Below are positions 371 to 64,000 of a DNA stretch of 64,000 nt, piece after piece; the stretch's first letter is position 1; each line of letters begins with the position of its first letter. A model generated the notes under the pieces. It searched no databases. It was given only the letters and a program-made list of their open reading frames with translations, and was not told where the DNA came from. The translations under genes and the position numbers were made by a program. This stretch comes from Ophiocordyceps camponoti-saundersi (nom. inval.) (taxonomy: Eukaryota; Ascomycota; Sordariomycetes; Hypocreales; Ophiocordycipitaceae), in contig PDHQ01000111.1 in NCBI GenBank assembly GCA_003339415.1, positions 41,682 through 105,681 on the forward strand. The letters run 5' to 3'.

Positions 371-780
371 TGTTGGACTTGCGCAAGAATGACTGAAATC
401 CACACGGGTGTGGAACAAGATCCACACATGCTCAGGATAGGGGGAAAAAGGGGTGCAGTGCGCAGGACGCATTGAAGGACTCAGGCAACAAGAAGTGAGG
501 CAAGTTTCGATTGTGTTTTCATCATGGCATTTCAGACAGGAGCTTCAACAGACTCCTGGTCGATATCGGATTGGTTTCGGGAAGAGATTGGATCATGCTC
601 GATCCAACATCGAGCATGGAAGAAGAGAGCACACGCAAGGACATTTCATGTATAAGTAGACGTAGAATTCCCTTCGTTTTAGAGAAGACACAGACGAACA
701 TTGTGAACCAGAAGAATCATACCTTTAGTACCAGTGATCGCTGTCAACTCCCGTGTGCGCACCACGAAGGCCAACCAACA
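371..780 (+). repeat. 5' LTR of intact copia element
   Basis: 410 bp, starts TGTTGGACTT and ends CCAACCAACA. It contains a 6-bp hairpin (400-405 with 408-413) and a perfect 10-bp hairpin (594-603 with 609-618, 5-nt loop). A TATA-like box precedes the probable transcript start. Small frames inside it (453-659, 511-795) recur only because the LTR is repeated and show no sign of being genes. Confidence 0.96.
651..658 (+). promoter_or_regulatory. Putative TATA box in copia 5' LTR
   Basis: TATAAGTA lies about 120 bp before the LTR end, a usual distance for a U3 promoter. The same box at 6538-6545 in the 3' LTR could drive read-through transcription out of the element. Inferred from motif and position only. 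Confidence 0.5.
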
Positions 781-790
781 CTGATCAGTG
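779..790 (+). other. Candidate primer-binding region: 12-bp palindrome at LTR/leader junction
   Basis: The sequence cactgatcagtg spans the LTR end and the first internal bases and is a perfect palindrome. The same 12 bp occurs at the same place in the unrelated-looking element at 50685-54255 (51188-51199). It is where a minus-strand primer should bind. I could not match it confidently to the 3' end of initiator tRNA-Met, so the primer (a tRNA fragment or self-priming) is open. Confidence 0.5.
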
Positions 791-999
791 GTTGAAATTT
801 GGTCAACCACAGATTGGCAAGGACGGAACAATCGACCCTGACAGCAGACTCTTGCGAAAGTGACCGCACAGAGGTAAGCCGTGATCGATTAAAGAGTTAA
901 CAAAGGGCTGCGCAGGACCCCCTCCAGAACTCTTGAAGAAGCCAACCCGAACACTTCACGATATCTATCTGAAGCCGGTTCGAAAACTTGCTTATAACT

Positions 1000-3900
1000 A
1001 TGAGCACCCCTCCCGAAGACAGAATGGAACTCCTTGAACACCATGACCAGCTAACCCAGGAAGCATTTGGACATACCAAGATCCCGAAACGATATTGGAA
1101 TCAGTTCAACTTGGATCGCTGGGACGATGATGTACCAGGAGACTGCGAGAACGCAGAGATGATCGAACTGGCGATGGCGAGATTTATCTCGTTCGTCGAA
1201 AGTGACAAGCAACTCTCTGGTCTCGCTTTGTTTGACCTCTTCCAACGACACTTTGACGGCTGGAAATCGAAGACGTGGGAAACAGGACGAGTATTCATGA
1301 GAGACCTTACCCGAAGCCTCCTCACAAGACGAGGAATTTATGTCGGCAGATCTAAGGAACCCGCCCCGAAGGAACTCGAAAAACTTCTGAACATGGACGA
1401 ACCTCCTGTATGGCCGGCCCAGGCATATAGCAAAACCTCTTTTGAACCAGGACTCGTGATCCCTGTGGGATTAATGCCAGAAACTGAGACGGACACCCAA
1501 ACCACTGCCGCGCCCACCTCACAACAGCAAACAGCACCCCAACCAGGGCCCGGCTCGGACGCCAGGAACGTCCAAATCCAAATCATCCCCGACCCTCAGG
1601 TGTCACAATCAGACGCATCATCTCAAAACCCACCAGTTCAACTCACCCAGCAACCGACAACATACCGATTCCAGGACCCTCAAGCTGCCGCTCGAAGAAC
1701 ACAGTCCCTACCAGATGCACCTGTTAAAGAACTATCAGCAAGCATGGCTAGACTTGATATTAATGGCCAAGGTCCTCACTCAGATACCGATATGGAACTT
1801 CATCGATATCGACGAGGACTCTCATCGAAAACACCTCGATTTCAGGACGAACCTATGCCGGACGCTTCTGCTTTCTCTACACTGCCCCCGATTGAATTTC
1901 CTAATACACATGTTAATTCAGAAACAATCACTCGATTCACCAAAGTCTGGGATAAGAACACCATGTACTCAGGCGAGCCTTATGACCTCTTGGATGATAA
2001 GGTCCGCATCTTTATGAACACCTGCTTCACACTGGAGATTCACCCATCTTGTTTTCATGCGATTTTTCCACGCATTCTTTCAGGCCGAGCGAGACGGTAT
2101 TATCTCGATCATATTAACTGGTCTTCCACCTTCCGCGATATGTATCTTCAAATGCAGAAGCATTTTGATACAGACGTTAACCACTCTCATTATTACACGG
2201 ATTGGACATCCACTACTTACCAAACGGTTCGGACTTCGTACCCTGAGAGCAAACCGCACGAAGTCCTACAGAAACTTTTTGATAAATTAGATCTCTGTCA
2301 GCGTGCTCTCGGTTCCGATTATGCTGGCAACGCCCCTTTGCGAACGACCCTCATTAATGCTTGCCGAGGCGTCCCTGAATTGGAATTTGCACTCTTTAGA
2401 CCCGCGAAAGACACGGAGACGCTCATGTCCGACCTCCGTTCCTCTCTAGAAACAGCCCTAACTCGTCAATCTGGTGGCTCGCAGTATGTTCAAAGCTCTC
2501 ACCTGTCACCACCTCCTCCCAACGCTCCAAGCCCCGATGCTTTCTACCTTGATCGCCGATATCAGAAGACCTTCGACCGGCCCTCGAACCGATATCGCAA
2601 CGACGGCGGAAGTAACTCTACTCGCAACCCGAGGGCCGACACCTCGTGGAACCGCAAGTGCTTCATTTGCGGCAAGACTGGATGCTGGTCCTCTAAACAC
2701 ACGGAAGAGGAACGCAAAGCATTCAAACGTTCATTTCTGGCCCATTGTGCTTTTACCGGCACGAAGGTCGACTTCGACGCTTATCTCACAGACTTCGAAG
2801 GGACAGAAAAAGTGCCAGAGGAGGATAGCGACGACGGATGGGCACTCCCATCTCATGAACCCACCGAAACTCTGTACTATGCTTCATCGTTCATGCAATC
2901 AACTCAAACATTTCATACACCCCGAATCACGGAACAAACGGAAGACTCACCATCGACATCACCCCAGGTAGCTGAAATACTGTGCCAGTCAGCATACATG
3001 CACTTCCTGACGGGAGACAACCCCCATGAGCCCGCACCCGTCACAGCTCCCGCCACTCATTTTACCTTAACAGACCGCTATTCCCAGACGACGTTCCAAG
3101 GTATTCTGATCGATACCGGTGCGGCATCCGTGTCGACATCGGGTCGATCTCAGTTCGAAGCATTGCGGCTTCTCATGCCATCACTATCCCTTGACGAGTC
3201 TACCGCCGGCCAAGTGTCTATCAAATTCGGTGAAGGTCAAATCGTCACCTCCCTTGGCTCTGTTCGAGTTACGACCCCGGTAGGCAAGATCACATTCCAT
3301 GTCCTGCCCTCTCAAACCCCGTTCCTCTTGTGCCTAGCAGACATGGATCGACTGGGGATATTCTTCCGCAACACTTCAAATCACCTCATCTGCGGAACGA
3401 CCAAGATCCCTGTCATACGCAAATGGGGTCATCCTTGGTTCTTCCTTTCACCCTCGGAAGAAGCAGTATCGTATCTTACCGAGCAGGAGATACGCCAAAT
3501 TCATAGACGGTTTGGACACCCCAGCGTGTCCCGTCTGCACCGACTGCTCACTCGGGCCGGACATGACACCGACGTCCAAGCTATTAAGGCTGTTTCTGAG
3601 GTCTGTCGTCAGTGCCAGTTAAATAGCCCCGCGCCCCAACGGTTCAAATTCAGGCTGGAGGACGACCGCGATTTCAACTTTGAGGTTATCGTGGATGTTC
3701 TCTATATTGACCAAAGAGCCGTCCTACACGCTGTCGACCAGGCCACAGCTTTCCAAGCTGCCCGGTTTCTCCCATCTCTCTCCGCGAAGGATACTTGGAA
3801 CACCCTTCGCATGATCTGGATCGATACCTACCTTGGACCCCCTGACATCATTCGTCATGATGCTGGAAAGAACTTCGACTCTCAGGAGTTCCGTTCCGAG

Positions 3901-6279
3901 GCCGCCACCTTAGGCATCACATGCACCCAGGTCCCCGTCGAGGCACATTGGTCAGTTGGGAAGGTTGAACGATACCATGCCCCCCTTCGACGCGCCTACG
4001 AGGTGATCTCGGCCGAACTTCGACCCGATGTCGGTCGGGATTCTGTCCTGCAAATGGCTGTGAAAGCAGTCAACGACACAGCAGGACCTGATGGACTCGT
4101 CCCAACCCTTTTGGTTTTTGGAGCCTACCCACGTGTACATCCCGACTCGGCTCCGACCCCTTCCACCTTGCGACGGGCTGCCGCTGTCCAGAAGGCCATG
4201 ACTGAACTCCGGAAATACCATGCCCAACGGATGGTCCGCGACGCTCTGTCCATGCGAAACGGCCCCGACGTCTCCGACGTTCTGCGGCTGCCTCTGAACA
4301 GCCAAGTTCGCGTTTGGCGCGAACCCGGCAAATGGACGGGACCATACACCCTTCTCTCTATCGACGGCCACAACGTTACCGTCGATCTCCCACACGGACC
4401 TCGTTCTTTCCGGTCTACGTGTGTCCGCCCCTTTCTGACACCTCCGCACAAAGGCCCCGAATCAATGCCGACTCTGCCTCCTTCTGATGTCGACTCAACT
4501 TCGGCACCATCCCGAGCAACGCCCCGTCCGAGGATTGCCATGCGTATTCCTCGAAATCTCTCCACGGACGACGCCTTCATAACGCAGAAGGAAAAGGACA
4601 ACATGTCGCTATCCCTCAAGCTTCGGGCTGAAGGAAAGATCACGACGGCTGGCCGACCTTTTGAGGCCTCGGATGCCCAGGAGATCAATGACCTCGTTGG
4701 CCGCGGTGTCTTTTCCTTTGAAAAGTATGATACCGTTAAGTACCGTGGCGTTCGCGTTTTCAGAGCACGCATGGTCCGAGAAATTAAGGGGACGGGCACC
4801 GACTGCCCGTACGAAAAATCCAGGCTCATTATCGCAGGTCATAGCGATAAGGGTAAGGATGCAATCCTCACCCAGTCCCCGACGATACAACGGGTCAGCC
4901 AGCGGCTTATTCTCGCTCTTGCCCCGGCTGCCCTTCAATCGGGCTTTGAACTGGCCCTACGTGACATCACCCAGGCGTACCCGCAGTCACGATCTGACCT
5001 TGAACGGACCATCATCGCCACGCTCCCCCCTGAGATGAAGGACCGGTACCCTCCGGATACTGTGATCCGCGTTATCAAGCCGCTGTACGGTATTGCGGAG
5101 GCCGGTGTCCACTGGTTTCGGACCTACCAAGACCACCATCTTCAACAGCTGCGGATGCGGACGTCGACCTTCGATGCCTGCCTCCTCGTTAAGTATGGCG
5201 ATCGAGCGCGTTTTGGGCTCGTTGGTCTGCAGACCGACGATACTCTTATGCTCGGCACAAAGGCCTTTGGACAACTGGAGGACGAGCAGATGACCGCCGC
5301 TCAGTTCCGCACCAAACCTAAGACTGTCCTCCGGGCCGGGGACACTGCGGACTTCAATGGATCTCGGATCGACCTCGCCCCGAGTTCGATCTCCCTTCGA
5401 CAAAAGGGCCAAGCGGCCAAGATTCGACCCGTCGACTGCTCCGCCCCGGATTACGCTCAGCAGTACCTCGAACAACGTGCCCGAGGTGCTTATGTCGCCT
5501 CCATCTGTCAACCCGAAGCCGCCTATGATCTTTCCGTCGCTGCCCAGCGGCAGTCTCCGGACAGAAAAGACTGCGAGAAGCTCAATAAAAGGCTACGATG
5601 GCAGCAAGAGCACCAAAACCGAGGACTGCGATACATCCCTGTGCCGCTGGACGGCATGAAGCTCTACATTTTCACCGACGGTTCTTTTGCGAATAACTCC
5701 GACCTATCCTCACAAATCGGATACGTCATTGTGCTTGGACAGGAGACCGGCGGCAAAGACAAGTTCACGCTCTCCGGGAACATCATCCACTGGAGCTCGA
5801 CGAAGTGCAAAAGGGTGACACGGTCCGTACTAGCGTCCGAAATATACGGGATGTCGGCTGGCTTCGACATCGGTATCTCCATCGGCTCGACATTGACAAG
5901 AATTCGGTCCGAACTCGGATCAAGCGCGATCCAGACCATTGTCTGCACTGACTCATACTCGCTGTATGAATGTCTGGTGAAGCTTGGGACCACAAAAGAA
6001 AAGAGGTTGATGATTGACATTATGTCAATGAGAGAATCCTATGAGAACCGGGAAGTCGAGGAAATCAGATGGATAAATGGTTTGGACAACCCTGCAGACG
6101 CCATGACCAAGGACAATCCGAACAAGGCGCTGGAACGCCTGATCGACACCAACACCCTTGATATCCGAGTCCAAGGCTTTGTGACCCGGAAGGAGAAACG
6201 CCTAGACTCGGCACGGGCCGAGGAATCGACCCTTCCCGAAAAAGAAAAAGTTGCCGGTGTTGGACTTGCGCAAGAATGA
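1000..6279 (+). CDS. Copia-type Gag-Pol polyprotein, intact
   Basis: The start is the ATG at 1000 (MSTPPEDRM), giving 1759 residues; an in-frame TTG at 988 is not a credible fungal start. Gag (about 1-600) ends with the variant zinc knuckle CFICGKTGCWSSKH (Cys554, 557, 562, His567; CCCH rather than CCHC). Protease has DTGA at Asp705. The integrase has a His835/His840/Cys869/Cys872 zinc site and catalytic Asp899, Asp954 and Glu990 (GKVERYH, D-35-E spacing). Reverse transcriptase has Asp1322 (RDITQAY) and QTDD at Asp1413-1414. RNase H has Asp1560, Glu1614, Asp1651 and Asp1700. No stop or frameshift separates Gag from Pol, so the Gag:Pol ratio must be set by other means. The frame runs 22 bp into the 3' LTR before its TGA. 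All key catalytic residues are present, so the protein is probably functional. Confidence 0.96.
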   Translation: MSTPPEDRMELLEHHDQLTQEAFGHTKIPKRYWNQFNLDRWDDDVPGDCENAEMIELAMARFISFVESDKQLSGLALFDLFQRHFDGWKSKTWETGRVFMRDLTRSLLTRRGIYVGRSKEPAPKELEKLLNMDEPPVWPAQAYSKTSFEPGLVIPVGLMPETETDTQTTAAPTSQQQTAPQPGPGSDARNVQIQIIPDPQVSQSDASSQNPPVQLTQQPTTYRFQDPQAAARRTQSLPDAPVKELSASMARLDINGQGPHSDTDMELHRYRRGLSSKTPRFQDEPMPDASAFSTLPPIEFPNTHVNSETITRFTKVWDKNTMYSGEPYDLLDDKVRIFMNTCFTLEIHPSCFHAIFPRILSGRARRYYLDHINWSSTFRDMYLQMQKHFDTDVNHSHYYTDWTSTTYQTVRTSYPESKPHEVLQKLFDKLDLCQRALGSDYAGNAPLRTTLINACRGVPELEFALFRPAKDTETLMSDLRSSLETALTRQSGGSQYVQSSHLSPPPPNAPSPDAFYLDRRYQKTFDRPSNRYRNDGGSNSTRNPRADTSWNRKCFICGKTGCWSSKHTEEERKAFKRSFLAHCAFTGTKVDFDAYLTDFEGTEKVPEEDSDDGWALPSHEPTETLYYASSFMQSTQTFHTPRITEQTEDSPSTSPQVAEILCQSAYMHFLTGDNPHEPAPVTAPATHFTLTDRYSQTTFQGILIDTGAASVSTSGRSQFEALRLLMPSLSLDESTAGQVSIKFGEGQIVTSLGSVRVTTPVGKITFHVLPSQTPFLLCLADMDRLGIFFRNTSNHLICGTTKIPVIRKWGHPWFFLSPSEEAVSYLTEQEIRQIHRRFGHPSVSRLHRLLTRAGHDTDVQAIKAVSEVCRQCQLNSPAPQRFKFRLEDDRDFNFEVIVDVLYIDQRAVLHAVDQATAFQAARFLPSLSAKDTWNTLRMIWIDTYLGPPDIIRHDAGKNFDSQEFRSEAATLGITCTQVPVEAHWSVGKVERYHAPLRRAYEVISAELRPDVGRDSVLQMAVKAVNDTAGPDGLVPTLLVFGAYPRVHPDSAPTPSTLRRAAAVQKAMTELRKYHAQRMVRDALSMRNGPDVSDVLRLPLNSQVRVWREPGKWTGPYTLLSIDGHNVTVDLPHGPRSFRSTCVRPFLTPPHKGPESMPTLPPSDVDSTSAPSRATPRPRIAMRIPRNLSTDDAFITQKEKDNMSLSLKLRAEGKITTAGRPFEASDAQEINDLVGRGVFSFEKYDTVKYRGVRVFRARMVREIKGTGTDCPYEKSRLIIAGHSDKGKDAILTQSPTIQRVSQRLILALAPAALQSGFELALRDITQAYPQSRSDLERTIIATLPPEMKDRYPPDTVIRVIKPLYGIAEAGVHWFRTYQDHHLQQLRMRTSTFDACLLVKYGDRARFGLVGLQTDDTLMLGTKAFGQLEDEQMTAAQFRTKPKTVLRAGDTADFNGSRIDLAPSSISLRQKGQAAKIRPVDCSAPDYAQQYLEQRARGAYVASICQPEAAYDLSVAAQRQSPDRKDCEKLNKRLRWQQEHQNRGLRYIPVPLDGMKLYIFTDGSFANNSDLSSQIGYVIVLGQETGGKDKFTLSGNIIHWSSTKCKRVTRSVLASEIYGMSAGFDIGISIGSTLTRIRSELGSSAIQTIVCTDSYSLYECLVKLGTTKEKRLMIDIMSMRESYENREVEEIRWINGLDNPADAMTKDNPNKALERLIDTNTLDIRVQGFVTRKEKRLDSARAEESTLPEKEKVAGVGLAQE
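6238..6257 (+). other. Polypurine tract and pre-LTR motif (copia)
   Basis: A purine run (6238-6250) followed by ttgccgg sits directly before the 3' LTR and should prime plus-strand DNA. It overlaps the 3' end of the polyprotein frame. The arrangement purine run + TTGCC(G/A)G + TGTTGGA recurs at 53733-53757 in the non-autonomous element. Confidence 0.65.
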
Positions 6280-6667
6280 CTGAAATCCACACGGGTGTGG
6301 AACAAGATCCACACATGCTCAGGATAGGGGGAAAAAGGGGTGCAGTGCGCAGGACGCATTGAAGGACTCAGGCAACAAGAAGTGAGGCAAGTTTCGATTG
6401 TGTTTTCATCATGGCATTTCAGACAGGAGCTTCAACAGACTCCTGGTCGATATCGGATTGGTTTCGGGAAGAGATTGGATCATGCTCGATCCAACATCGA
6501 GCATGGAAGAAGAGAGCACACGCAAGGACATTTCATGTATAAGTAGACGTAGAATTCCCTTCGTTTTAGAGAAGACACAGACGAACATTGTGAACCAGAA
6601 GAATCATACCTTTAGTACCAGTGATCGCTGTCAACTCCCGTGTGCGCACCACGAAGGCCAACCAACA
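6258..6667 (+). repeat. 3' LTR of intact copia element
   Basis: 410 bp, read as identical to the 5' LTR, followed by the target duplication attag (6668-6672). The last 22 bp of the polyprotein frame, with its TGA, lie inside this LTR. Confidence 0.96.
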
Positions 6668-49370: not shown

Positions 49371-50684
49371 AACTCTTAAAAACGTAAACCCCTTAAAAAA
49401 CGAGACGATTAACGTTTAGTATTAGAAAATTCGTACGGAATACGAAAAATACTAAGGTTTTTTTACTTAGACGATAAAGATAAACTAGAAGGCGAAGGTT
49501 ACTAAGAACTTTAAGATTACTATAACGACCGGAACTCCTTATAGTTACGTTCTAGCTAAATAGGCCGTAAAAGGGGATTAGCTATTATAGTATATCGCTA
49601 GAGTAATATAGGAGGAAACCGCTTTAGTAATAGTATCTTAAAATATTTAAAAGTTCTAAACTACCGATAAGAATATTATAGAAGATATCTTACCGCGTAA
49701 TTAGCTAATCCCGTAACCGGAGTTATAATAACTATATACTATAATATACTACTTCGCGAACTATACGGTAAAGAAAGATAATAAAGGTAATCTTCCCCCT
49801 ATATTAGAGATTATTACTAATATAAGGAAGATAAAAGAAGCTATCCTACCTAATATTACGGATTCGTTTTCTATTATTATATAGAAATTATAAAAGCGAA
49901 TAATCCTTAGTATTAACCGAATAGTATACGATAAGCTACCGGGCATAATAGATACTAATATATTAGGGGTAGCTTTATTAAAATTAGCTCTTAAAGGCTA
50001 AGGCTATTATAACTAAGATATTACTATTATTACTTATAGGTCTAAGGCGGGATTTTAGGACGTAAAAAGAGTGTTAAAATTTAACGTAAATTAGGTTATT
50101 CGCCGGGTATTAGGCTAACGGGCCGACTAGCTTACGCTACCTTAATTATTAATAAAACTATCGAATAAAATAGCTAACGATAAGGTAAAAGATTCGTTAG
50201 ATAGATATACCCTTATATCGGTATCTAAAATTAAGAATAAGGATATAGTTAAACTTATAACTACGATAACTCCTTTAAAAAGGAATAAGGATATAGTTAA
50301 ACTTATAATTACGATAACTCCCTTAAAAACGCCTTAAGGCCTTAAGACTATACCGCCTATCCCTAGTTAGAAGAATACGGGTTAAGGTTAGCTTAAATTA
50401 CCGGAGTAAGCCCTAAAAGCGAGGTTAGTATAACCTATAGTTAGGATAAAGCTATAATCTTCTATCGTAGAAATATTAGCTACTACTAGCCCGAAGCGAT
50501 CTTCTTCTTTTATTATATAGCCTTCGGTTAAAATATCGGCTACTGCTAGCCCGAAATATCCTCCGTCTTCTATTATACGGCCCTCGGTTACTACTAACCC
50601 GAAACCTTCTATCGTATAAGCCTTACCTATTATAAAGATACCGACTTTAACGCTTATATCCTTATTCCCGAAATCTTCTATTAT

Positions 50685-51189
50685 TGTTGGAATACACATA
50701 GTGCTGGCTGCTTGGGAACATGACACGCGTCAAACACGCGTGGCACGCGTCGCAGAGATCACCATCTCTGCATAAACAAAGCAGGAGGTCAGAGGCACGC
50801 ATGAAGAGGAGTCGAACTCGAGATGATACCGATCCGAGACCAGTGCAATGTCAATGCAAAGCACGTCGTCAATGCGATGGGAATCGAGAGGAGGAGGGAG
50901 TGTAGCCTGGACGTGTATATAATGAGTTGTTGTTCCCGCACTTTTGTTTGAGAGGGCAGTTATGAACAGAGTTGTTAAGATCAATCATTCGTGACTCATT
51001 CTGCCGGAGCACTATGGACGGGAGACGTAACATTCCTTCAGCCATGTGATCCGGTGGAGATACCCGAACCCAGTTGTCTAGGTCGATGTGTGTACGCGGT
51101 TCCTTTGGTCGTGGCTGTCAAAACATCACGATGAGAGCGGAGCACGACACCAGCCTCCTTTTCGGCTTGGGAAGGATGCCCAACCGACA
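50685..51189 (+). repeat. 5' LTR of non-autonomous element
   Basis: 505 bp with three ACGCGT boxes (50725-50730, 50736-50741, 50745-50750), a perfect 8-bp hairpin (50752-50759 with 50764-50771, loop cacc) and a TATA-like box TATATAA at 50916-50922. Confidence 0.94.
50725..50750 (+). promoter_or_regulatory. Three ACGCGT boxes in LTR
   Basis: ACGCGT occurs three times within 26 bp; in fungi this is the MCB site bound by the MBF G1/S factor (established for yeasts). All three boxes survive in the RIPed relative at 60034-60059. The copy at 53791-53816 is in the 3' LTR. Function here is inference. Confidence 0.5.
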
Positions 51190-51199
51190 CTGATCAGTG
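51188..51199 (+). other. 12-bp palindrome at LTR/interior junction (candidate primer site)
   Basis: cactgatcagtg, identical in sequence and position to 779-790 of the intact copia element. The bases after it differ (atgaggctggg versus gttgaaatttgg), so the shared part is limited to the junction. Confidence 0.55.
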
Positions 51200-51655
51200 A
51201 TGAGGCTGGGTCGTTTTTATAACGATCATCTCTCATCACTCTAGGTGCTTTCGGATTTGGAAGAGCAATCCTGATAGTGGCGATTGTCAAAGTGCCGACA
51301 CATTAGAAGCTATGGTTGCTATTTCGACAAGTTGCAGATACACTTTAACTAGTGTCTGGTCAGCATTCAACAATTCGGACATCCTGGTACTCGGTGACAA
51401 CCTACCACAAGTTGATGTCGTTCACTCTTTTTCTCTTTTTCGACTTTGGTCCGAGACTCACAAGAACTTACTTCGATGTCGACTCGAGCTCCTGTCAGTC
51501 CCGGACCAGTCTCAGCAATTACTTGGCACACTTCATTTCACAATGCTTCACAAAGGTCAGAAAGAAAGTCTCTTGCAAGGAAATCAATTCAGCAAGCTGC
51601 AAGAGATAAAAACAACAAAAACGAAAAATATAAACAACAAAAACAAAAATGAGCG
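51190..51655 (+). other. 5' interior of non-autonomous element, no gene
   Basis: Shared with the RIPed relative at 62400-62900. It ends in an A-rich stretch (51603-51652, repeated aacaaaaac). Small frames here (51312-51878 and overlapping) have no domain and cross into the antisense gene. It is probably leader/packaging sequence. Confidence 0.5.
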
Positions 51656-51659
51656 CCGA

Positions 51660-52498
51660 CTATTTTTTGCGCGGGGGCCCGGCCTTGCGACGGTCGCCGT
51701 TGGCCTTGCGCGCAATATTGAGGTGCTGTCGATGTCAGTCAGATATCGGTCTGAACTTGTTCAGGGTTCAAATCATTGTCAACATACCTCGGCCTCCTGG
51801 TCGGACTCCAAAGGCCAATTGTCGGCCACGAAAACGGCAATCGCCTTGGCCGACTCCTCAGCCGCCGGGAGAGTCTAGCATTCCCAAGTCAGTCACAAAC
51901 TCGACAAACCACCACTATGAAGCAGGAAGACATACCGGATCGCAACGACACCCCGCCGCCGCACAGGCGTGACATGCGCGCGCTGTCCTGGAATGCTGAT
52001 ACTAGCAGGCATCCACTGACGGCGGCCATTGTGTCAGGCGCCCCACGCACTGGTAGCATGGGACCGGCCAGCGTGCATCACCACGCTCACACCCGCGCTT
52101 CGGTTTCGCGGGCGTATCGCCGTCGGACCCAAGCATATCGACGTGGCGGGCGCGCTTCGGCGTGCTCTTGGTCGTGGACGCGGGACGCGACGAAGTCTTC
52201 CTGCCCGACTTGGGAGGAGTGGAGGTGGCCCCAGAGGTGGCCGCAGCTATCACAGGTTGAAACATGTCAGCAGGCGGGTCGAGATCGACACGAACTTTGA
52301 ACGAAGTTGGTACTCACCCGCACGACTCTCAAGGACGCGACGAGCATTGGGAGGCAAGGCGAGCTCGTCTTCGTCGTCGTCGTCGTCGTCGTCGCCCTCG
52401 TCGCCAGAGGCGACGAGGTTCTCCTCGGCCATGGCGCGTTCAGAAGGCAAAACAGTCTTGCGCGCCGACGGACGGGGAGCAGAGCGCTGAACAGGCAT
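51660..52498 (-). CDS. Four-exon cargo gene, Cys-rich basic protein, one in-frame stop
   Basis: Exons on the minus strand are 52498-52318, 52246-51936, 51874-51788 and 51725-51660; introns are 52317-52247, 51935-51875 and 51787-51726 (71, 61 and 62 bp). Donors are GTGAGT, GTATGT and GTATGT; CTGAC branch sites and TAG/CAG acceptors are present. All junction phases agree, giving 215 codons including the final TAG. Codon 142 is TAG (52002-52004), so as read the product is 141 residues. The N-terminal third has a run of seven Asp in an acidic patch (about 33-45). The middle is Lys/Arg/Ser/Thr-rich (73-111). A Cys cluster follows: Cys113, CxxC 124-127, Cys141, then beyond the stop CxxC 152-155, Cys160 and Cys162. 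The C-terminus is basic (GPPRKK). Coding pattern continues past codon 142, so this is a recent nonsense change, a read-through site or a sequencing error. Likely nuclear and metal- or nucleic-acid-binding; family not recognised. Confidence 0.8.
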
Positions 52499-52506
52499 GA
52501 AGGCAA

Positions 52507-52567
52507 CTACGATTCGAAGTCAGCATGATGCACCATGAACTTCGATTCGAGTTCGGGCCAAGCTCAC
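52507..52567 (-). other. 5'-UTR intron of the cargo gene
   Basis: 61 bp with donor GTGAGC after AAG, a branch-like TGCTGACT (52518-52525 complement) and acceptor CGTAG, nine bases before the ATG at 52498. The same size and signals as the three coding introns support it. Confidence 0.7.
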
Positions 52568-52660
52568 CTTGATAGCTGTATGAAGACGATGGTGATGATG
52601 AAGACGGTCGGCACGAGGGAGGAAGGAAGAAGAAAGGAATGCGGAGCTCGGGCGCGGGGC

Positions 52661-52669
52661 AATTTATAG
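52661..52669 (-). promoter_or_regulatory. TATA box of the cargo gene
   Basis: CTATAAATT on the minus strand. It is followed on that strand by a CT-rich stretch (52646-52600) typical of fungal transcription starts, then the 5'-UTR intron. It makes the gene independent of the LTR promoter, which points the other way. Confidence 0.65.
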
Positions 52670-52706
52670 GTGGGGTTGCTGACTCACTGATTTGCCCCTC
52701 CATATA

Positions 52707-52804
52707 GGTACGTACCCTATCTCACGAACACGGTACGTACCTCTGTGGCAGTCTGGTACGTACCTACAGTCTATCACAATCGAGGTTAGCTACCGGTACG
52801 TACC
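52707..52804. promoter_or_regulatory. Four copies of palindrome GGTACGTACC
   Basis: Identical 10-bp palindromes at 52707-52716, 52732-52741, 52755-52764 and 52795-52804, 40-140 bp upstream of the cargo-gene TATA box (minus strand). Being self-complementary, they suit a homodimeric DNA-binding factor. Sequences between them are not repeated. The bound factor is unknown. Confidence 0.7.
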
Positions 52805-52999
52805 TCTCGGCCATAAAATGCCTCTCCCCCCCTCTCTGAAAAGTTTTTTTTTCTCTTCCTTTTTCTATTTATTTTTCGACGTTTTCGTTGTCTGTTTTTC
52901 ACGGACCGCCCACACGATTCCTTACTGGGTGTGTCCTTCTTTTGTTTTGCGCGTTCTGTCTTCAGCCCTCTGGTCTCTGGACCAGCAGAGAGAAGCTGC
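52805..52999. other. Pyrimidine-rich segment upstream of the cargo promoter
   Basis: Includes a T/C-rich run (52836-52880). Frames across it (for example 52692-53063 and 52786-53217) lack domains and overlap promoter and hairpins, so I do not call them genes. Confidence 0.4.
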
Positions 53000-53444
53000 C
53001 AGGGGATTACAGCTCCCCTGCCATACTCCCGGGGGCGCGACGAGAAGAACGCGCCCGTCATAGTGGCGTCAACCGCCCCGGGGGTATGGCAACAACAACC
53101 AACAGCGAAGACAAGGCTAGGGATACTAAGACCGAGGCCAAGCATCCTGCGGCATAGGAACGGATAGTGCTGCAGGAAGAAGACGACCCTCGCCGGCTGC
53201 GGGGGTCCACCGGTCAATGGGGGAGATTCCCCCTCGCAGGACCGGTGTTTACCGGGGGTCTCCGAGTGAGACGCCCCGGTAGTATCCCCGTAGCCGGCTC
53301 ACATCAACTTCAGGGGAGTTGACTGCCGGTCCCGTGGCTCCGCCAGCCAGAAGCCACCGAGCCACGGGATCGGCTAACCAGACTCGGACGTCCTGTACCG
53401 GCGTCGGGCTGCCTTTTCTCAGCGACGAAGCCCGGCGCCGGTAC
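53000..53444. other. GC-rich array of seven hairpins (structured RNA/DNA domain)
   Basis: Stems seen: 53000-53006/53014-53020 (7 bp); 53033-53039/53050-53056 (7 bp, GC-only); 53208-53215/53240-53247 (8 bp) enclosing 53219-53224/53228-53233 (6 bp); 53251-53262/53268-53280 (12 bp, one bulge); 53304-53309/53317-53322 (6 bp); 53325-53340/53359-53374 (16 bp, one G-U); 53395-53410/53429-53444 (16 bp, one G-U). This density is unlikely by chance. It could be a packaging or dimerisation domain, or the structured 5' end of a captured non-LTR element. I recognise no ribozyme core. Confidence 0.65.
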
Positions 53445-53732
53445 CACAACACCATACCCCTCATCCACCTTTCGACGACGTGACGGGGTGACGCGAAACA
53501 CAGTTCAACACGCGTCGCCTCGAGAAGCAACACTGGAATCGGCAAGAAAACAATCGGATATCGACACGATATCGACCCAAACTCATCAACAGATCAGCAA
53601 GGCAAAGGGCATCCACAAGACCCCAAACCACACAAGTCCTTGGAGGCAGAGAAACAATTCGATCTACGGCAGCCACCAAGGAACCTGATCACACCTCGAC
53701 CACCTGCACGTCAACCCACATGTTCCCAACCA
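53445..53732 (+). other. 3' interior of non-autonomous element
   Basis: Unstructured, moderately AT sequence with no gene, including several gatatcga-type short repeats at 53556-53575. Frames here are short and without domains. Confidence 0.4.
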
Positions 53733-53750
53733 GGAAAGAAAAGTTGCCAG
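53733..53750 (+). other. Polypurine tract and pre-LTR motif (non-autonomous element)
   Basis: A purine run (53733-53743) followed by ttgccag, then TGTTGGA of the LTR. This is the same layout and nearly the same bases as copia 6238-6264, supporting shared replication machinery. Confidence 0.65.
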
Positions 53751-54255
53751 TGTTGGAATACACATAGTGCTGGCTGCTTGGGAACATGACACGCGTCAAA
53801 CACGCGTGGCACGCGTCGCAGAGATCACCATCTCTGCATAAACAAAGCAGGAGGTCAGAGGCACGCATGAAGAGGAGTCGAACTCGAGATGATACCGATC
53901 CGAGACCAGTGCAATGTCAATGCAAAGCACGTCGTCAATGCGATGGGAATCGAGAGGAGGAGGGAGTGTAGCCTGGACGTGTATATAATGAGTTGTTGTT
54001 CCCGCACTTTTGTTTGAGAGGGCAGTTATGAACAGAGTTGTTAAGATCAATCATTCGTGACTCATTCTGCCGGAGCACTATGGACGGGAGACGTAACATT
54101 CCTTCAGCCATGTGATCCGGTGGAGATACCCGAACCCAGTTGTCTAGGTCGATGTGTGTACGCGGTTCCTTTGGTCGTGGCTGTCAAAACATCACGATGA
54201 GAGCGGAGCACGACACCAGCCTCCTTTTCGGCTTGGGAAGGATGCCCAACCGACA
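53751..54255 (+). repeat. 3' LTR of non-autonomous element
   Basis: 505 bp, read as identical to 50685-51189, and followed by the target duplication attat (54256-54260). Confidence 0.95.
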
Positions 54256-55349
54256 ATTATATAAGCCTTACCTGCTATAAAGATGCCGACTTTAACGCTT
54301 ATATCCTTAAATATCCCTATAGTAGTAGAGAGGATATATCCCGCTTCGACGCTTATATTTACTATATCGCTATCTTTTATTACTTTAGCGGTTTATACGC
54401 TTTCGGCTACCCCTAGGATTTATAATACGCCCGCGCTAATTTAGGCACTTTCGGCCACCCCTATAATTTAGAACGTAACTATATCGATTTAGGTACCTAA
54501 AGATAAGGCTATCTCTAATATTACCTACGTTATAACTATAGGAGCCTCTACTACCCTCTATTAGAAGGAAGCGTTCGAATTATTATTAGCTAAGTAGCGA
54601 AGTCTAATAGCGCGGTAGTTAGAGAAGAATAAGATATAGATAGAAGAATAACGGTCTATTACGAAAGATTAAAAAAAGTAATAGGAAGCTAATTATAAGA
54701 CTCTTCTTAAGTACTAACGAAAGGAATTTTAGCGAGTTATATAAGTAGAACAATTAATTACGCTTACTAAGAGAGCTATTAGATAGATAATAGCTATTAA
54801 AAATATAGAGAGAATTATCTTACTTATTCGTAATAAGCTAACCCGTATTCTAAATAAGTCTTCGATATAACTAAAGCGGCCTATTTCTACGGATATTAAA
54901 GAATATAATATATATCCGATAAAAGATACTATTAGAGCGGCGCTATAAGAGGTATTTTAATCTATAACGATAGACGATATTATCCGACTACTACTAAATA
55001 GAGCTATTAAGATAATACTACGCTAAGTTATTAAGGTAAACTTTAAGGATTTCGATTAACTTATATTATAACCTATATCGGACCCCCTTCTATAGCTATC
55101 TAACTAAGGGTTAATATCCGATATATTATCGCCGCGACCTAAGAGGCTTAGTATAGCCGATTAGTCTAATAAAAGATCGATTAAGAAAGCGAGGCTATCG
55201 AGCTAAGGAAATTAGGAGACTAGCTCGAATAAAATCGGGGGGATACCCCTAGGACTAGATAACGATAAGCTATTTACGGAGGATTATAGTAAAGAGGTTT
55301 AGGTAAAGAAGGTGGTCGTAGGCGACTATAATAAAGATACCCCCTACTT

Positions 55350-55546: not shown

Positions 55547-57492
55547 ACTATAAATAAAGTAATTTAAAATATTACGGAAGAATATCCTTAGTTAATTTAT
55601 ATTTACTAAGTATAAGAGGAACGGGGTTTAAGTAAGTAAGATATAAAATATAATCTTACCTACTAGGGTTATAATTTAAATAGAGCTAAGGAAAGTAATA
55701 GTTTAACTTTTACCGAATTTAATAGATACTTATTTAGCGGTAAACTTATTAAGGGATAGTAAAGGTATAAGAAGCTATAATACTTTAAACTAAGATTAAC
55801 CTAATATTAATATAGATACCGTATTAGTATTAATTAGAATATTTTAGAATATTATTTAGGAATAGTAGTTTATTAAAATAAAATAAGTAGCGGGAGCTAT
55901 AATAAGTATAGGCTTATAAAAGTTATCTCCTATTAGGAAATATATATATACTAACTAATATAATATTTTAGCTACTTAAGGTAATATTAATAGTAAGTTT
56001 TCTATTAATTCTATAATTTAAAGTATATAAAATACTTAAGTTAATTATATAAATAATAAAATATAATATAGAGTTTTAGTAAGTTTATAAGATAAGAGTA
56101 AATATTTATCTATTATCGCTATCCTCCTCTAATATTTTTTCTATCTTTTCGAAATTTATAAGATAAGCGTTAAAGTTAACTTTTATACTAGTAAAAGTAT
56201 AATAAGCTAGAAACGAATATCTAGATATTTTATATTCCTTTTCTATATATTTAGAGGACTAATATCTAATTTTACTATAAATAAAATACTTATAGTTTTA
56301 TAAGGTATTAGCTTTTAAATTACGAGTAAAGTTACTTCCGTTATTATTATAATATTAGTTCGAAGGCCGGTTAAAGGTTTTTTAATATCGGCGATTAAGG
56401 TAGAAAATATCGGGGCTTATAGCGTTAGGAGGAGGTAATAGTAAGTAAAAGCTTTAAATATATTACGAGCTATTAGATTAATAAGTTAGGGCTATTTCTA
56501 AAGAGGAACGGAGGTTAGATATAAGTATCTCCGTATTTTTCGTAAGTTTAAAAAATATAAATTTTAATTTAAGGACGCCTTAGTAAGCGTTAATAAGGGT
56601 TATTTATAAAAAGGCGTTACTAATATAATTAGAACTAAGAGTACGCTAATAGAGATTTAATTTATTAAAGAGTTTCTATAAAACTTCGTACGGTTTACTT
56701 TTAAGGTATAAAGTCTAAATTATTTAGTAAGTAGTAAATATCTAATCTATATAATAATAAGAGTAGTTATAATTTATATTAAAATACTTTTATATTTAAA
56801 AATATATATTATAGAAAGTAGAAGATTAGTTAATATAATTAAGATAATATTATCTCGCTTAGCTTAAGAGAATATATTAAAAAATCGTATAAAAATAAAA
56901 TAGGTAAATCTTTAATATAAAGTAGGTATTTTTAAAAATATAAACCTTATTATCTAAAAGGTTATAAAGTTTGCTTAAATATATAGTATTCTTATCTTAG
57001 ATTTTAGTAAATTAAGTAATTATTTCTAAATTAATATATATATTAGGAAATTTAATTAGGGGTAGTATAAAGAAAGTAGAAGCGTTTAGTATAAGTTTAT
57101 CTTAAAATCGAGGTATTTTCGATAAAAATCTTTATTATTATTAATAAAATTCTATATTAGTATCTAAATAAGGACCTTAGCTATTAATATTAAGTTTAGC
57201 TATACTTACTAATAGTTTTTTAATAGGTATATTTAATAAGGACTATATTCTTTAAGCGGTAGCTTAAGGGTCTTAGAATAGGTATATTATTAGTTACTAG
57301 GTAAGTTAAATTAGTAAGTTTTAAGATAATATATCTAATTATAATATCTAAGGGTTAGGGATAATTTAAATTTAAACGTTTCTAATATCTAAGCTAAGCC
57401 CTAGTTAGGCTACTATCTACTATTATAAGGTAAGTATAGTAGTAATTTAAGTTTCTATCTTAGTTTTTAATATTAATCTTATAAGGATTATA

Positions 57493-58086
57493 TATATATA
57501 TTATATTACTCTAGTAACCTATATAGGTATCTAAGTATATAATCGTTTAATAGAGAGGAAAAACCGGAGTACCCCGGGGAAAAACCCCTTACTTAATATA
57601 TTCGGCTAGCTTATAAGCTAATTATATCGTATTAGAGAGCTTAATTATTATAGAAAATATCTAAAGTTACGCTAGTCCTAAGCGAGAGGTATTTATATTT
57701 CTTATCGTATATCTTATCTAAGTTCTAAGTAATTCTAGTATATATATTAGTAGATACTATAGCGAAGATATATTACTTTATAATTATACTTTATTACTAG
57801 ATTATAGTTACTATTAAAAGGGACCTATTTTTTTAATAACTTACGTTATCTAACTATACCCTCGCGCCTTACCTTACTTAAGCCTCGGCCGGGTTACTAC
57901 TCCTACTAAGGGAGGAAAGGAGCCCGGCAGGGTTACTACTCCTGCCGGGGTTATGCTAGGGTCGGACCGTACCCCGGCTATATAGTTAGGGTAAAAAATA
58001 CCCGTGCCCTCCGCCGGATTCGAACCGACTGCCTCTTTTATAAGAGACTAATATCTCTAAACGCTTAACTACTACGCTAGGAGGGC
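57493..58086 (-). mobile_element. tRNA-derived SINE, copy 3 (594 bp)
   Basis: Minus strand; the head gccctcctagcg ends at 58086. The 13-bp target duplication tataaggattata is at 57480-57492 and 58087-58099. It is inserted in copia copy 4; the empty site is visible in copia copy 2 around 12790-12806. The B box complement is ggattcgaacc near 58017-58027. Confidence 0.9.
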
Positions 58087-58652
58087 TATAAGGATTATAA
58101 GTTTTAGTTTAAAAGAGGTTTTATTATATACTTAGGCTAGCTATATAAAAGGTTTATTTATATTTAGAAGTTTTTTAAGTTTTTTTAGGGCGGGTTTTTT
58201 AGATTTACTAATATAAATTCTTTATCTTATAAGAAAGCTTTAAGTAAGGTCTCTTATAAATACTTATCCTATTTCTTATATTTTTATTTTCTAGCTATTA
58301 AAATATTATTAGAAGAGGTTAAATAAAGCGAGATTAGAAAGTTACTTATTACTTTTAATAAATAAGATAAATCTCGCTATCGCTAGTTTAATTATTTTTA
58401 TATTCTTATAATCTCCTAGTATATTATTATCCTAGTAATCTAAGTTAAACTAATTCTAATATCGTTTTAAGATCTTAGTATATTTAAATATTTCTTAGGT
58501 TAGCTAATTATAATATTTAAAGAGTTCTATTCTATTTTTAGGAGGGGTGCTTATAGTTATAAGTAAATTTTTAAACTAGCTTTAGATAGATATTATAAAA
58601 TATTTAAGTTAGCTTTTTTAAGAGTTTTAGAGGGGGTCTTATATAGCCTTTT

Positions 58653-59250
58653 ACCCTCCTAGCGTAGTAGTTAAGCGTTTAGAGATATTAGTCTCCTATA
58701 AAAGAGGTAATCGGTTCGAATCCGGCGGAGGGCACGGGTATTTTTTACCCTAATTATATAGCCGGGGTACGGTCCGACCTTAGCATAACCCTAGTAGGAG
58801 TAGTAACCCTGCCGGGCTCCTTCCCTCCCTCGGTAGGAGTAGTAACCCGGCTAAGGCTTAGGTAAAGTAAGGCGCGGAGTAAGAGTATAGTTAGATAACG
58901 TAGGTTATTAGAGGAATAGGTCCCCTTTAATAGCGACTATAATCTAGTAATAAAATACGATTATAAAGTAATATATCTTTATTATAGTATCTGCTAATAT
59001 ACGTACCGGAACTACTTAGAACTTAGATAAGATATGCGATAAGAAGTATAAGTACCTCTCGCTTAGGACCGGCGTAACTTCGGATATTTTCTATAACGAT
59101 TAAGCTTTCCGATATAATATAATTAGCTTATAAGCTAGCCGAATATATTAAGTAAAGGGTTTTCCCCTAAGTACTCCGGTTTTTCCTCTCTATTAAATAA
59201 TTATATACTTAGATACCTATATAAGTTACTAGAGTAATATAATATATATA
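58653..59250 (+). mobile_element. tRNA-derived SINE, copy 4 (598 bp)
   Basis: The head begins accctcctagcgtag (first G lost to RIP). The 13-bp target duplication tatatagcctttt is at 58640-58652 and 59251-59263. The empty site is in copia copy 2 near 13345. The head carries A-box-like and B-box (ggttcgaatcc) motifs and the pairing 5' end/GGAGGGC typical of a tRNA acceptor stem; the tail is TA-rich. Confidence 0.9.
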
Positions 59251-59798
59251 TATATAGCCTTTTATTAACTTTTTAATCGATTATAGCTTACTTTTATATA
59301 GTTACTTTCGTAAAAGTTTATTATTAAGGTTAATTATTCTATCTTTACTAATTTATAATTAACTAAATTTTATTTATTAATTAGTATTAGTTAGCTTTTA
59401 TAATATATATACGGGAGTTAATAGCGATTATTAATATTAAAAGTATAATTTTTTAAATTTATAATATTTATCTATATTTTCTCTAAAACGAAGGGAATTC
59501 TTTATTTACTTATATATAAAATATCTTTATATATACTCTTTTCTTCTATACTCGATATTAGATTAAGTATAATCTAATCTCTTCCTAAAACTAATCTAAT
59601 ATTAACTAAGAGTTTATTAAAGCTCCTATCTAAAATACTATAATAAAAATATAATCGAAACTTACCTTACTTCTTTCTTATTACCTAAGTCCCTCTAATA
59701 CGTCTTACGTAATATACCCCTTTTCCCCCTATCCTAAGCATATATAGATCTTATTCTATACCCGTATAAATTTTAGTTATTCTTATATAAGTCTAATA

Positions 59799-59992
59799 GT
59801 TATAGTTATAATTATAATTATAGCTATAGCTATAGCTATAACTATAGTAATTATAGTTATCCCCGCGCCTTATATAGTTAAATTAGTTTTTTATATCTAA
59901 TTAAAGTAATCGAAACTTAAAACTAGGTAAGCGGTTAGTAAAGTAATAAATAATAGTATATTACCGTATAATAACTATTACGTGTTTATACT
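59799..59992. other. RIPed spacer with TATAGC hexamer repeat
   Basis: Begins with the copia copy 4 target duplication gttat, followed by a degenerate (tatagc)/(tatagt) repeat at about 59800-59860. It continues the sequence at 38365-38797. No gene is seen. Confidence 0.55.
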
Positions 59993-62900
59993 TATTAGAA
60001 TATATATATCGCTAGCTGCTTAGGAATATAATACGCGTTAAATACGCGTGGCACGCGTCGCAGAGATAATTATCTCTATATAAATAAAGTAAGAGGTTAG
60101 GGATACGTATAAAAAGGAGTTAAACTTAAGATAATACCGATCTAAGACTAATATAATATTAATATAATATATAAAGTTAATATAGGAGGAGGATAAGGAG
60201 GTAGTTAGTAAGAGGAGGAACGTATATATAATATATTTATTTTTCTATACTATTTAAAAGAGAGATAAATTATAAGTAAAGTTATTATTTAATCTTTTAT
60301 AACTTTATTAGCTAAAATATATTATATAGTAAATATAATATTCTTATATATTATATAATCTAAATAAGTTACCTAAACTTTATTATTTAAGTTAATATAA
60401 TATAACTTCCTTAATATAAATATAACTCTTATATATTCTACGGATCCCGCGCTTATAGCGACGCGGATACGGACTTCTTATTTTTATATTATAAGCGGAC
60501 TCCGCTTTTTCCGTTACCCCGTAATAATAGCCTCGAGCTACGCCCGGAGCGACTCTAAGGGGGAGGGTAACGCTATATAAGTTAATCGTAACCGCGAAAA
60601 TTTTTTACCCGGAATATAGCTCTACTCTAAATCGTAATAAACTCGGACTTAAAAATTTACTATACCTTTTACCTTATTAGAAGCTAAAGCGAGTATTAGT
60701 AAGATTATTTTAGGGGACGCCTTAATCTCCGTATAAGTAATTATCGAATAAGTAGCGGAGTTTAAGAGGGTCCGGGGAGGCGCCCCCCCTACTTTAACTT
60801 TATTAATTAATAGTATTTCCTCGGCTATTACGGCCGCGATTTCCTCTCTTTTTTATAGCTTTAGGGGGAGCGGAACTCCTTTAATATAAGCTATAATTAT
60901 AGCTAAAGCGCTAGAGAAAATTATTAAAAAATAGGTTTCCGGGTAATATAAGCGTTAGCTTATAATTCGCTCTAACTTTATTATTACTCCGCTCTAAATC
61001 TAAGGCCTTAAAATAACTATAATAAGTATTAATTATAAACTCCGTAAGTAAAGCTAAGCTTTTATAATAAGGAAATTACCTAATAGTAATATTATAATAA
61101 TATTCTAAAACGCTATTTATAAGCTTTAGTCTAATCTAAGGTAACTTTATACCGCTTTCGGAGAAAAGGTATACCTTATTAGCGGAGGTTATACTCTTAT
61201 TATAAAAAAGGTATTAGCGTAAGCTTTATAATAAAGTAATAAGGAAGCTTTTTAAAAAAAGATTAAGTTATCGAATAAAGTTTTAGTAATATAATTATAC
61301 GCGAAAAGATATTATTTAAGGATTTAGCGGAGCTCCTTTATAATTATTATTAATAGCGTAATAAATATAAATTAAATTTATAATAAGGGTATAATAATAT
61401 AAGCGGAGATCTTTAATATAAAACCTTATAAGCTAAAAGTTTAACCTTAATAATATTTTAAGTACTATTAGCTTAGATATATTACTAAATACTATATAGC
61501 GAAATTATAATATAGCTAATATTCCGCCTTTTCGTATATAGAGGGTAAGTTAGCTTACCTTATAGCGTACGGAAAGAGACTATATTATTACCCTTTTTAT
61601 CGGGGAACTTACTCTAAGTAAAGTTAACTTTACCTTAAAATAAGAGTAACGTAAGACCGGGCGAAGGATACTTATATTTCCTAACCTTAGAGATTTATAG
61701 ACTAGAACTCTATATATACCGCCCCTCCTCCCTTTTTAGCGCTAACCGGAGTCTAGTAATAGCTAGGGCGGAAACGCTAAAAAGCGAATATAGTAGCTCC
61801 GCCTCTAACCCCCTTTCTAAACTTATTTATAGCTTTACCGCGATAATCTAGCTACTTTTTAAGATTAGCTATTATAAGGTTTATTATAAGCTAGTAAAAC
61901 CTCTATATATTTTTTAATCGCGTTAATAAAGCTTTAATCGAATAGATTATTTAGGATATTATAATTAAGTACGGAGATTTAGTTTATAGTAATAATAACG
62001 CTTAGGAAAATAAGTAACTATATAGACTCTATATTAAACCTAGACTACGCGTACTCTTATTACCGCGGACTTTACTCCGGAGGAAATATCGGCTTCCTAA
62101 TTACTTATTATTACCGGACTTATTTAAGATATAGAGTACTAGGTACGGACCTAGTCCGGCCTTAAACTAAGGTAACGCTTAAGGGGAGGGTTTTACTCTA
62201 AGTTCTCCGGTTTTTCCCACTCTTAGAATATATATAGGATAGTTCTAAGCTAAATTAAGTATATTAGCGTACGAATATTATTATTATAAGTTAATATAGT
62301 ATATATATTCTAAGTTTAATCTATTAATATCTTTACTATAAAAAGTTTATAATATAACTTTAGCTACTTATTTAGCTTAGGAAAAATACTTAATTAATAC
62401 TAATTAGTAATAAAGCTAGGTTATATTATAAACTTAATTACTTTTTATTACTTAAAATTTAGTTAACTAATATAAGCTAAAGTATTAGCTTTATTATTAT
62501 TTAACCTTAGTTTAAATTAGAAATAAAAGAATAATTTAAATAGTAAATATTTATTAAAATACTAACTCCTAGGAAATTATAATTATTATTTCGGTAATAT
62601 ATAAATATATTTTAACTAATATCTAGTTAGTAACTTAATAATTCGGATATCCTAATACTTAGCGATAACTTACTATAAGTTAATATTATTTATTTTTTCT
62701 TTTTTTTACTTTTAGTTTAGGATTTTTAGGAACTTATTTCGATTTCGACTTAAAATCTTATTAATTTTAAATTAATTTTAATAGTTACTCCGTAATTATT
62801 ATTTACTAAGTTTTTATAAATTTAGTACTAGAAGTTTCTTATAATTAAGTTAATTTAGTAATATATAAGAGATAAAAATAATAAAAAATAAAAATAATAA
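59993..62900 (+). mobile_element. RIPed relative of the non-autonomous element, interrupted
   Basis: The start tattagaatatatata matches the RIPed LTR start of 50685. The ACGCGT boxes and following hairpin region are recognisable (60031-60070). LTR similarity runs to about 60415 and resumes about 62340. It ends at 62399 (taattaata), followed by ctaattag, the RIPed palindrome. Interior similarity to 51190-51650 continues to about 62900, then stops, just before where the cargo gene begins in the intact copy. The other LTR would lie beyond the window or has been lost. Confidence 0.78.
60416..62340. other. Insertion inside the RIPed LTR, unclassified
   Basis: About 1.9 kb that separates the two LTR parts. 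It is GC-richer at both ends (60440-60560, 61720-61760, 62080-62220). Near 62175-62220 it shares a tail-like motif (aaggggagggtttt, ccggtttttccc) with the SINEs. It may be a LINE or SINE-related element. No domain is recognised; borders are approximate. Confidence 0.45.

Positions 62901-64000
<1,100 letters not shown>

Follow-up and report, generated by a model that had tools for sequence, protein, structure and literature searches.

Two questions are raised by a small LTR element lying in the window, by which we mean the whole stretch of 64,000 nucleotides analysed here: how a gene with a promoter and introns of its own can persist on the antisense strand of a retrotransposon, and how that gene could give its full protein when a stop codon interrupts its frame. 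The preliminary description of this DNA had dealt with the first question, proposing that a complete host-like gene had been captured together with its promoter and that the antisense arrangement had preserved its introns. The second question arises from a codon which that description had overlooked, namely an in-frame TAG at codon 142, and it is this codon that occupies most of what follows.

The small LTR element and its antisense gene

The host genome assembly comprises 45.7 Mb in 733 contigs. The window is AT-rich from about 7 kb onwards to its end and has almost no CpA/TpG there, with the exception of 50.7-54.3 kb; judging from base composition, this depletion is the mark of RIP. The exception, an island in the RIPed block, is the LTR element, and its CpA index is 0.92-1.18 over window positions 51001-54000 compared to 0.00-0.14 in the block at 7-50 kb. 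Taken gene by gene, the index is 1.12 in the window copy, 1.14 in a sister element that we call C724 and 0.13 in a RIPed sister, L012; the window gene is free of the C-to-T/G-to-A changes in CpA context that make up the RIP signature.

The small element has LTR ends TG...CA, a 5-bp target duplication and an interior of 2561 bp (Table 1). Judged by frame length, no frame of gag-pol size is present in 44-60 kb, where 13 frames reach at least 100 codons and the longest stop-to-stop frame has 224 codons. The window also holds an autonomous Ty1/copia-type element with 410-bp LTRs and the target duplication ATTAG, and the two elements have several termini in common: the LTR start TGTTGGA and end CCAACCRACA, CTGATCAGTG directly behind the 5' LTR, and a purine tract with GTTGCCRG directly before the 3' LTR. 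Because these termini are shared with an element that bears gag-pol, the sense of the small element is + and its minus-strand gene lies antisense to the genomic RNA, in agreement with the preliminary description. By its anatomy, the small element is a non-autonomous Ty1/copia-type derivative of + sense, and the copia element is a possible source of the machinery that it would need in trans. Two features had suggested the opposite orientation as a possibility, namely the lack of a tRNA-type TGG primer site after the 5' LTR and the position of a structured segment towards the 3' side, but that orientation was dropped once the copia element in the window proved to have the same ends with gag-pol on the + strand. 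Reverse-transcriptase matches placed beside LTR matches were of no help on orientation among the matches listed. The copia element itself looks intact, stands at the edge of the RIPed block and has its best protein matches in Hirsutella.

Table 1. Positions of the features described in the text, numbered from the first letter of the window.
Feature	Position	Strand	Remarks
Autonomous Ty1/copia-type element	371..6667	+	LTRs 371-780 and 6258-6667, 410/410 identical
Copia element, stop-free frame of 1768 codons	973-6276	+	RVT_2 above cut-off
Target-site duplication ATTAT, left copy	50680..50684		right copy 54256-54260
5' LTR, TGTTGGAAT...CCAACCGACA, 505 bp	50685..51189	+	TATATAA inside, + strand
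Primer-binding side CTGATCAGTG	51190..51199	+	common to copia element (781-790) and C724 element
Coding exon 4, basic tail	51660..51725	-	terminal TAG 51662-51660
Coding intron 3, 62 nt, phase 0	51726..51787	-	
Coding exon 3	51788..51874	-	
Coding intron 2, 61 nt, phase 0	51875..51935	-	
Coding exon 2, contains Cys-rich domain	51936..52246	-	
Predicted hairpin, UAG in loop	51985..52020	-	weak in window copy; strong in C724 and some others
In-frame TAG, codon 142	52002..52004	-	between the two halves of the Cys cluster, directly after third Cys
Coding intron 1, 71 nt, phase 1	52247..52317	-	
Coding exon 1, acidic stretch	52318..52498	-	ATG 52498
5'UTR intron	52507..52567	-	
TATAAA of antisense gene	52663..52668	-	within conserved block 52622-52716
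TGAGTCA	52680..52686	-	TGACTCA at same place in C724
Four GTACGTAC palindromes, upstream of antisense gene	52708..52803		starts 52708, 52733, 52756, 52796
Strongly structured RNA segment (predicted)	53144..53390	+	~90% identical to C724 over 230 bp
Purine tract AGGAAAGAAAAG preceding 3' LTR	53732..53743	+	copia counterpart GAAAAAGAAAAAG, equivalent position
3' LTR	53751..54255	+	505/505 identical to 5' LTR
Second-member remnant, LTR-like stretch	59995-60148		
Second-member remnant, C724-type antisense gene	63599-62946		

The TATA box, the 5'UTR intron and the three coding introns of the preliminary description are all found on the minus strand. Judged by eye, the four predicted introns have GT...AG ends and a CTGAC branch-like motif. 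The C724 element carries the same TATA block and a gene whose protein is 44% identical to the window product, with three coding introns at the same places and in the same phases (1, 0, 0). Upstream of the gene stand four GTACGTAC boxes in the window element and three similar ones in the C724 element, counts that were reached by 1 of 100 and 0 of 200 shuffles for a motif chosen after it had been seen, and a TGAGTCA which we take to be an AP-1/Gcn4-like site. Outside the gene, two stretches are conserved best among RIPed copies: the TATA block (75-83%) and the structured segment near the 3' LTR. The latter segment is predicted to form a very stable multi-branched RNA fold (z -8.0, and -7.7 for its C724 counterpart), and the wider stretch around it is 72.7% alike between the window and C724. 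A search of the segment against Rfam gave nothing beyond one weak, chance-level match. It may serve the non-autonomous element as a packaging signal or as some other cis-acting signal.

Exon phases had been said to agree over 215 codons in a complete gene; the register does hold, over 214 codons, but it does so across the TAG, which interrupts the frame and leaves the gene short of complete. The Cys-rich domain has the layout C-x2-C ... C-TAG ... C-x2-C ... C. Pfam searches with the products gave nothing above cut-off, with Zn_clus at E 0.096 for the C724 product. The acidic stretch, the basic tail and the Cys cluster with this sub-threshold Zn_clus match suggest nucleic-acid binding, which is a guess. 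A protein search with the spliced product, in a database that includes fungi, found no homologue outside the host genome at E <= 1, and a four-sequence profile compared with the 7996 candidates sharing most words also found none outside the host genome at E <= 1. One scan of viral contigs revealed no homologue of the antisense-gene product.

The preliminary description had called for a count of element copies with the same cargo. The gene is antisense in all eight LTR-paired elements whose layout was determined (the window element, L011-L013, L019, L021, L023 and L024), and a C724-type protein has at least 172 exon-level matches in the genome at E <= 1; the gene therefore has the appearance of a long-standing component of the element across its family. 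The idea that introns persist through RNA-mediated copying is borne out by two C724 copies that retain their introns; 2 differences separate them over 3208 aligned bases, at least one of their flanks is not the same, and the second copy ends at a contig end. On this comparison, copying with introns kept is recent. A different fate has met L012, a full-length sister of the window element: 489 of its 490 differences are C>T or G>A, 424 of them in CpA context, and by these changes it is plainly dead through RIP.

Some further features of the RIPed DNA and of related repeats are worth recording. At 57489-59254 there are three pairs of long imperfect inverted repeats (303, 239 and 98 nt; 86-93% complementary), and 59987-63600 holds a RIPed remnant of a second member of the non-autonomous family, in which about 2 kb of additional DNA separate LTR from gene. 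A ribosomal DNA copy at L060 900-2700 is, judged by eye, itself RIP-mutated. L017 3237-3746 and its relatives belong to a repeat family of more than 6-9 kb whose copies are about 90-93% alike and which carries the 5' part of a related gene; at one fixed site within it stands a solo LTR or a full non-autonomous element, with an apparent empty site in L022.

A conserved UAG within a frame under selection

In the C724 gene a TAG occupies the same codon as in the window. Across 15 homologous paralogous places, all little-RIPed and all in one genome, the codon is TAG in 13, TGG (Trp) in one (L062) and TTG in one (L058), many of the 15 being short relics rather than independent genes. Nine of them were read over 181-301 bp, and L055, which is not homologous at the site, was dropped. 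RIP marks are absent from 14 of the 15 (CpA index 0.72-1.62). The remaining one, L056, is RIPed in part, with an index of 0.53 around the gene, and leaving it out gives TAG in 12 of 14. L056 and L059 have a further in-frame TAG nearby. RIPed copies are uninformative on the codon because RIP makes TAG from CAG or TGG, and a large repeat family (L009, L011, L015-L018, L020, L022 and L024; also in L010) is silent on it because its related gene reaches only just before the TAG in the seven copies read. A scan for more sites with a 20-nt motif returned 22 matches with up to two mismatches compared to 15 in a reversed control, so that most of the weaker matches are chance; the places used were those with an exact or one-mismatch match, plus a relic inside L059. 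This relic, at C2:41922, has TGG in a decayed frame, and a one-mismatch TAG place at C111:243384 is a motif match only.

A single intron replacing intron 2 was tried as a means of removing the TAG. All GT/AG pairs of 37-250 nt were scanned singly, and the 18 open models that resulted (151-187 aa, from introns of 142-250 nt) all had poor donors and were rejected.

The protein is best conserved behind the stop. When the window product is compared with that of C724, 37% of residues are identical in exon 1, 31% in the linker and 48% in the Cys stretch that precedes the TAG; the 72 codons after the TAG reach 56%, and there pN is 0.34 and pS 0.69, compared to 0.50/0.66 in exon 1. In pairs compared over at most 22 codons behind the TAG, pN/pS was 0.04/0.65 for C724-L056, 0.09/1.01 for L057-L059, 0.07/0.82 for L057-L066 and 0.22/0.61 for L057-L063; constraint was weaker in the pairs with L068 (L057-L068 0.31/0.58, C724-L068 0.41/0.62). 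Before the TAG the values were 0.00/0.22 (L057-L059) and 0.13/0.45 (C724-L056). Two of the three coding introns are also located behind the TAG, at conserved places. We read the stretch behind the TAG as sequence that has evolved as translated protein under purifying selection, and simple decay seems a poor account of the TAG.

In many copies the sequence of the site is GCN TGY TAG GAR CAR GCN. In predicted 61-nt folds, 10 of the 13 TAG copies place the A of the UAG in a hairpin loop, the exceptions being L066, L067 and L068. Synonymous shuffles, which keep the peptide around the site, still give a hairpin in 64-98% of cases, and the presence of a hairpin therefore proves little by itself. Over the whole gene span, 5 of 13 U-A sites in the window and 8 of 18 in C724 fall in hairpin loops, the candidate editing site included. 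Only C724, L056, L057, L058 and L059 have a 61-nt fold that surpasses 99.6% or more of 500 shuffles; the window-copy hairpin has a z of -0.34 and is equalled by 17-19% of synonymous shuffles. In 14 of the 15 copies (all but L067, and with the TGG and TTG copies among them), paired cells make up 85.7% of the hairpin alignment compared to 75.9% when shuffled, and covariation is 0.366 compared to 0.199; 0 of 500 shuffles reach the observed pairing or covariation, in a comparison where related sequences can exceed such shuffles without structure. When the hairpin partners are slid by 1-3 columns, covariation is 0.01-0.17. Two pairs are left free by the encoded amino acids: at the Cys3-Glu3 wobble pair there is covariation (p 0.007 by permutation, from 15 non-independent copies), and the Ala3-Gln3 wobble pair shows no significant covariation (p 0.11-0.155).

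Proposed recoding by editing and its alternatives

Our reading, to which we give a probability of roughly 0.57, is that we are dealing with an accessory gene, antisense and family-wide, of a non-autonomous copia element and that its full-length protein needs recoding of the UAG, most likely by A-to-I editing. The element carries its accessory gene, with promoter and four introns, antisense, and since the gene lies antisense to the genomic RNA, these introns would be invisible to splicing of the + RNA and would survive retrotransposition, as its anatomy suggests. Once inserted, the element would be transcribed from its minus-strand promoter into an mRNA whose unedited form ends translation at codon 142, yielding 141 aa and half of the Cys cluster; only when the UAG is recoded would a 214-residue protein with both Cys halves and the basic tail appear. 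The most likely route is A-to-I editing by the Tad2-Tad3-Ame1 tRNA deaminase, which would turn UAG into UGG (Trp) within the hairpin loop. As editing in Sordariomycetes takes place mainly in sexual development, when RIP also acts, the accessory protein would be switched on at that time. We put at about even odds the more specific proposal that the retrotransposon gene is locked by its conserved UAG and opened only by sexual-stage mRNA editing of the host, the full Cys-rich protein being timed to germline copying and RIP.

Fungal A-to-I editing is described as preferring sites in hairpin loops and sites that have U at -1 and a purine at +1 and at +3 (PMC11156358). All 13 TAG copies have U at -1, G at +1 and A at +3, as UAGUA in the window and UAGGA in the other 12. 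This editing is attributed to tRNA deaminases acting in the sexual stage and changes UAG to UGG in about 70 Fusarium graminearum genes, including FgRID (PMC11156358, PMC4817773). In FgAme1, M500-V501 is reported to be essential, the M-V pair enabling Tad3 binding and ancestors having K-N, and Tad2-Tad3-Ame1 is reported to carry out editing in yeasts as well (PMC11087585). Of the three DUF726 (Ame1 family) genes in the host genome, the one located at C8:89043-90101 shows I-V in the position of M500-V501, with the equivalents of S531, D589 and H629 in register; the other two have S-L and A-R there. The first may encode an Ame1-like editing cofactor and is our candidate for that role. RID-type DNA methyltransferase, looked at as another gene that might bear witness to stop editing, gave matches in two places, with no stop inside the matched stretches, and is uninformative on the point. 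Among the papers listed, titles and abstract openings yielded no transposon gene with an edited stop. Because the site agrees with the sequence preferences of editing, a paralogue carries TGG and the host has a candidate Ame1-like gene, we take editing as the leading explanation and readthrough as its main rival.

In programmed readthrough the UAG would be passed at some rate, for example with Gln, and both the short and the long protein would be made at all stages. Retroelements elsewhere use UAG readthrough, and it predicts a conserved UAG with a selected frame behind it as well as editing does. Against it stand the position of the stop, which in 10 of 13 copies is inside the hairpin loop and not ahead of a structure, and the edited codon TGG in L062 and in the decayed relic; moreover, the base after the stop varies, being T in the window and G in the other 12 TAG copies. 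We regard readthrough as unlikely. A plain pseudogene, that is, a nonsense-mutated gene of the host or of the element whose dead copy was spread by transposition, would fit the single in-frame stop of the window copy and the death of its sister L012 through RIP. Such a history is hard to square with a TAG kept in 13 of 15 places even though the families differ at over half of their residues (42-44% identity to the window product), with purifying selection behind the stop, or with window and C724 genes that lack RIP and sit in elements with identical LTRs, and we consider it quite unlikely.

Fungal introns can end in TAG, and codon 142 could be the 3' splice site of an alternative intron, an upstream donor being joined to an exon that starts right behind it. 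In line with this, the homologous stretch in L064-L067 starts at the site or a few codons earlier, and L063 offers, at -99, an in-frame donor that agrees with the consensus at 5 of 6 bases; in FgBUD14, editing and splicing of a stop-containing intron both occur (PMC11156358). Yet the seven copies tested have no conserved in-frame consensus donor, which makes splicing at the TAG unlikely. The commonest in-frame GT (at -45 in 6 of 7, absent from L056) belongs to a conserved Val codon and matches GTRAGT at 3-4 of 6 bases, the stretch before the TAG is under protein-level constraint in L057-L059 and C724-L056, and L062 with its TGG and L058 with its TTG would be left without a splice site. This makes the alternative intron less probable still. 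Finally, the capture favoured by the preliminary description would make the gene a recently acquired, expressed host gene carried as antisense passenger cargo. The gene's own promoter and introns would fit, as would related Cys-rich fragments in non-RIPed contigs, but the antisense placement in all eight LTR-paired elements and the many exon-level matches speak against recent capture, and the intron-bearing host paralog that was to be sought by protein search did not appear: among the matches listed, of which few places were read, there was no full-length stop-free host copy. Recent capture is therefore highly improbable.

Relation to known systems

The gene brtn in Boty-like elements of Botrytis cinerea (Zhao et al. 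2011; via PMC8365987, PMC7264820, PMC4227169) is likewise an extra antisense gene in a fungal LTR retrotransposon. Elements of the Boty type encode gag-pol that includes a chromodomain (PMC4227169) and are listed as BcGypsy1 (PMC8365987), whereas the small element is non-autonomous and has copia-type ends, which sets it apart from the autonomous Ty3/gypsy, gag-pol-bearing host element of brtn. The passages on brtn in these sources mention no stop-codon recoding. A conserved antisense gene is likewise present in maize Grande (gene23), RIRE2, Retand and PvRetro13, that of Grande having its own promoter and encoding a nuclear protein whose role is given as unknown (PMC7264820). Unlike the small element, these plant elements have gag-pol, and no conserved in-frame stop is described for them in the part of that source consulted (PMC7264820). 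Antisense accessory genes of LTR elements are a known kind, with their function unexplained.

As regards the stop codon, PUK1, CHE1, FgRID and AMD1 of Fusarium and Neurospora likewise have an in-frame UAG with U at -1; theirs lies in a hairpin loop, as is predicted for most TAG copies here (PMC4817773, PMC11169179, PMC11156358). The UAG of PUK1 and of CHE1 is described as conserved in relatives, and CHE1 also encodes a zinc-finger protein (PMC11169179). These are host genes with RNA evidence, whereas here a retrotransposon gene is concerned and editing is predicted from sequence. The Neurospora spore-killer genes rfk-1 and Spk-1 are, likewise, selfish genes with edited mRNA (PMC8092558); they are not transposon genes, however, and the edit in Spk-1 changes a Tyr codon to Cys with no stop involved (PMC8092558). 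In the sources consulted, then, fungal A-to-I stop correction is described for host genes and editing is also reported in spore killers. If our reading is correct, the conserved, hairpin-borne UAG would link these two phenomena in a mobile element that relies on RNA editing by its host to switch a gene developmentally, and genes of this type may be dismissed as pseudogenes or given false introns by annotation. Beside a fragment at C711:442.5k, L070 shows by eye an additional Cys motif, CTYCEVNELDC, hinting at a wider family of such domains in the host genome.
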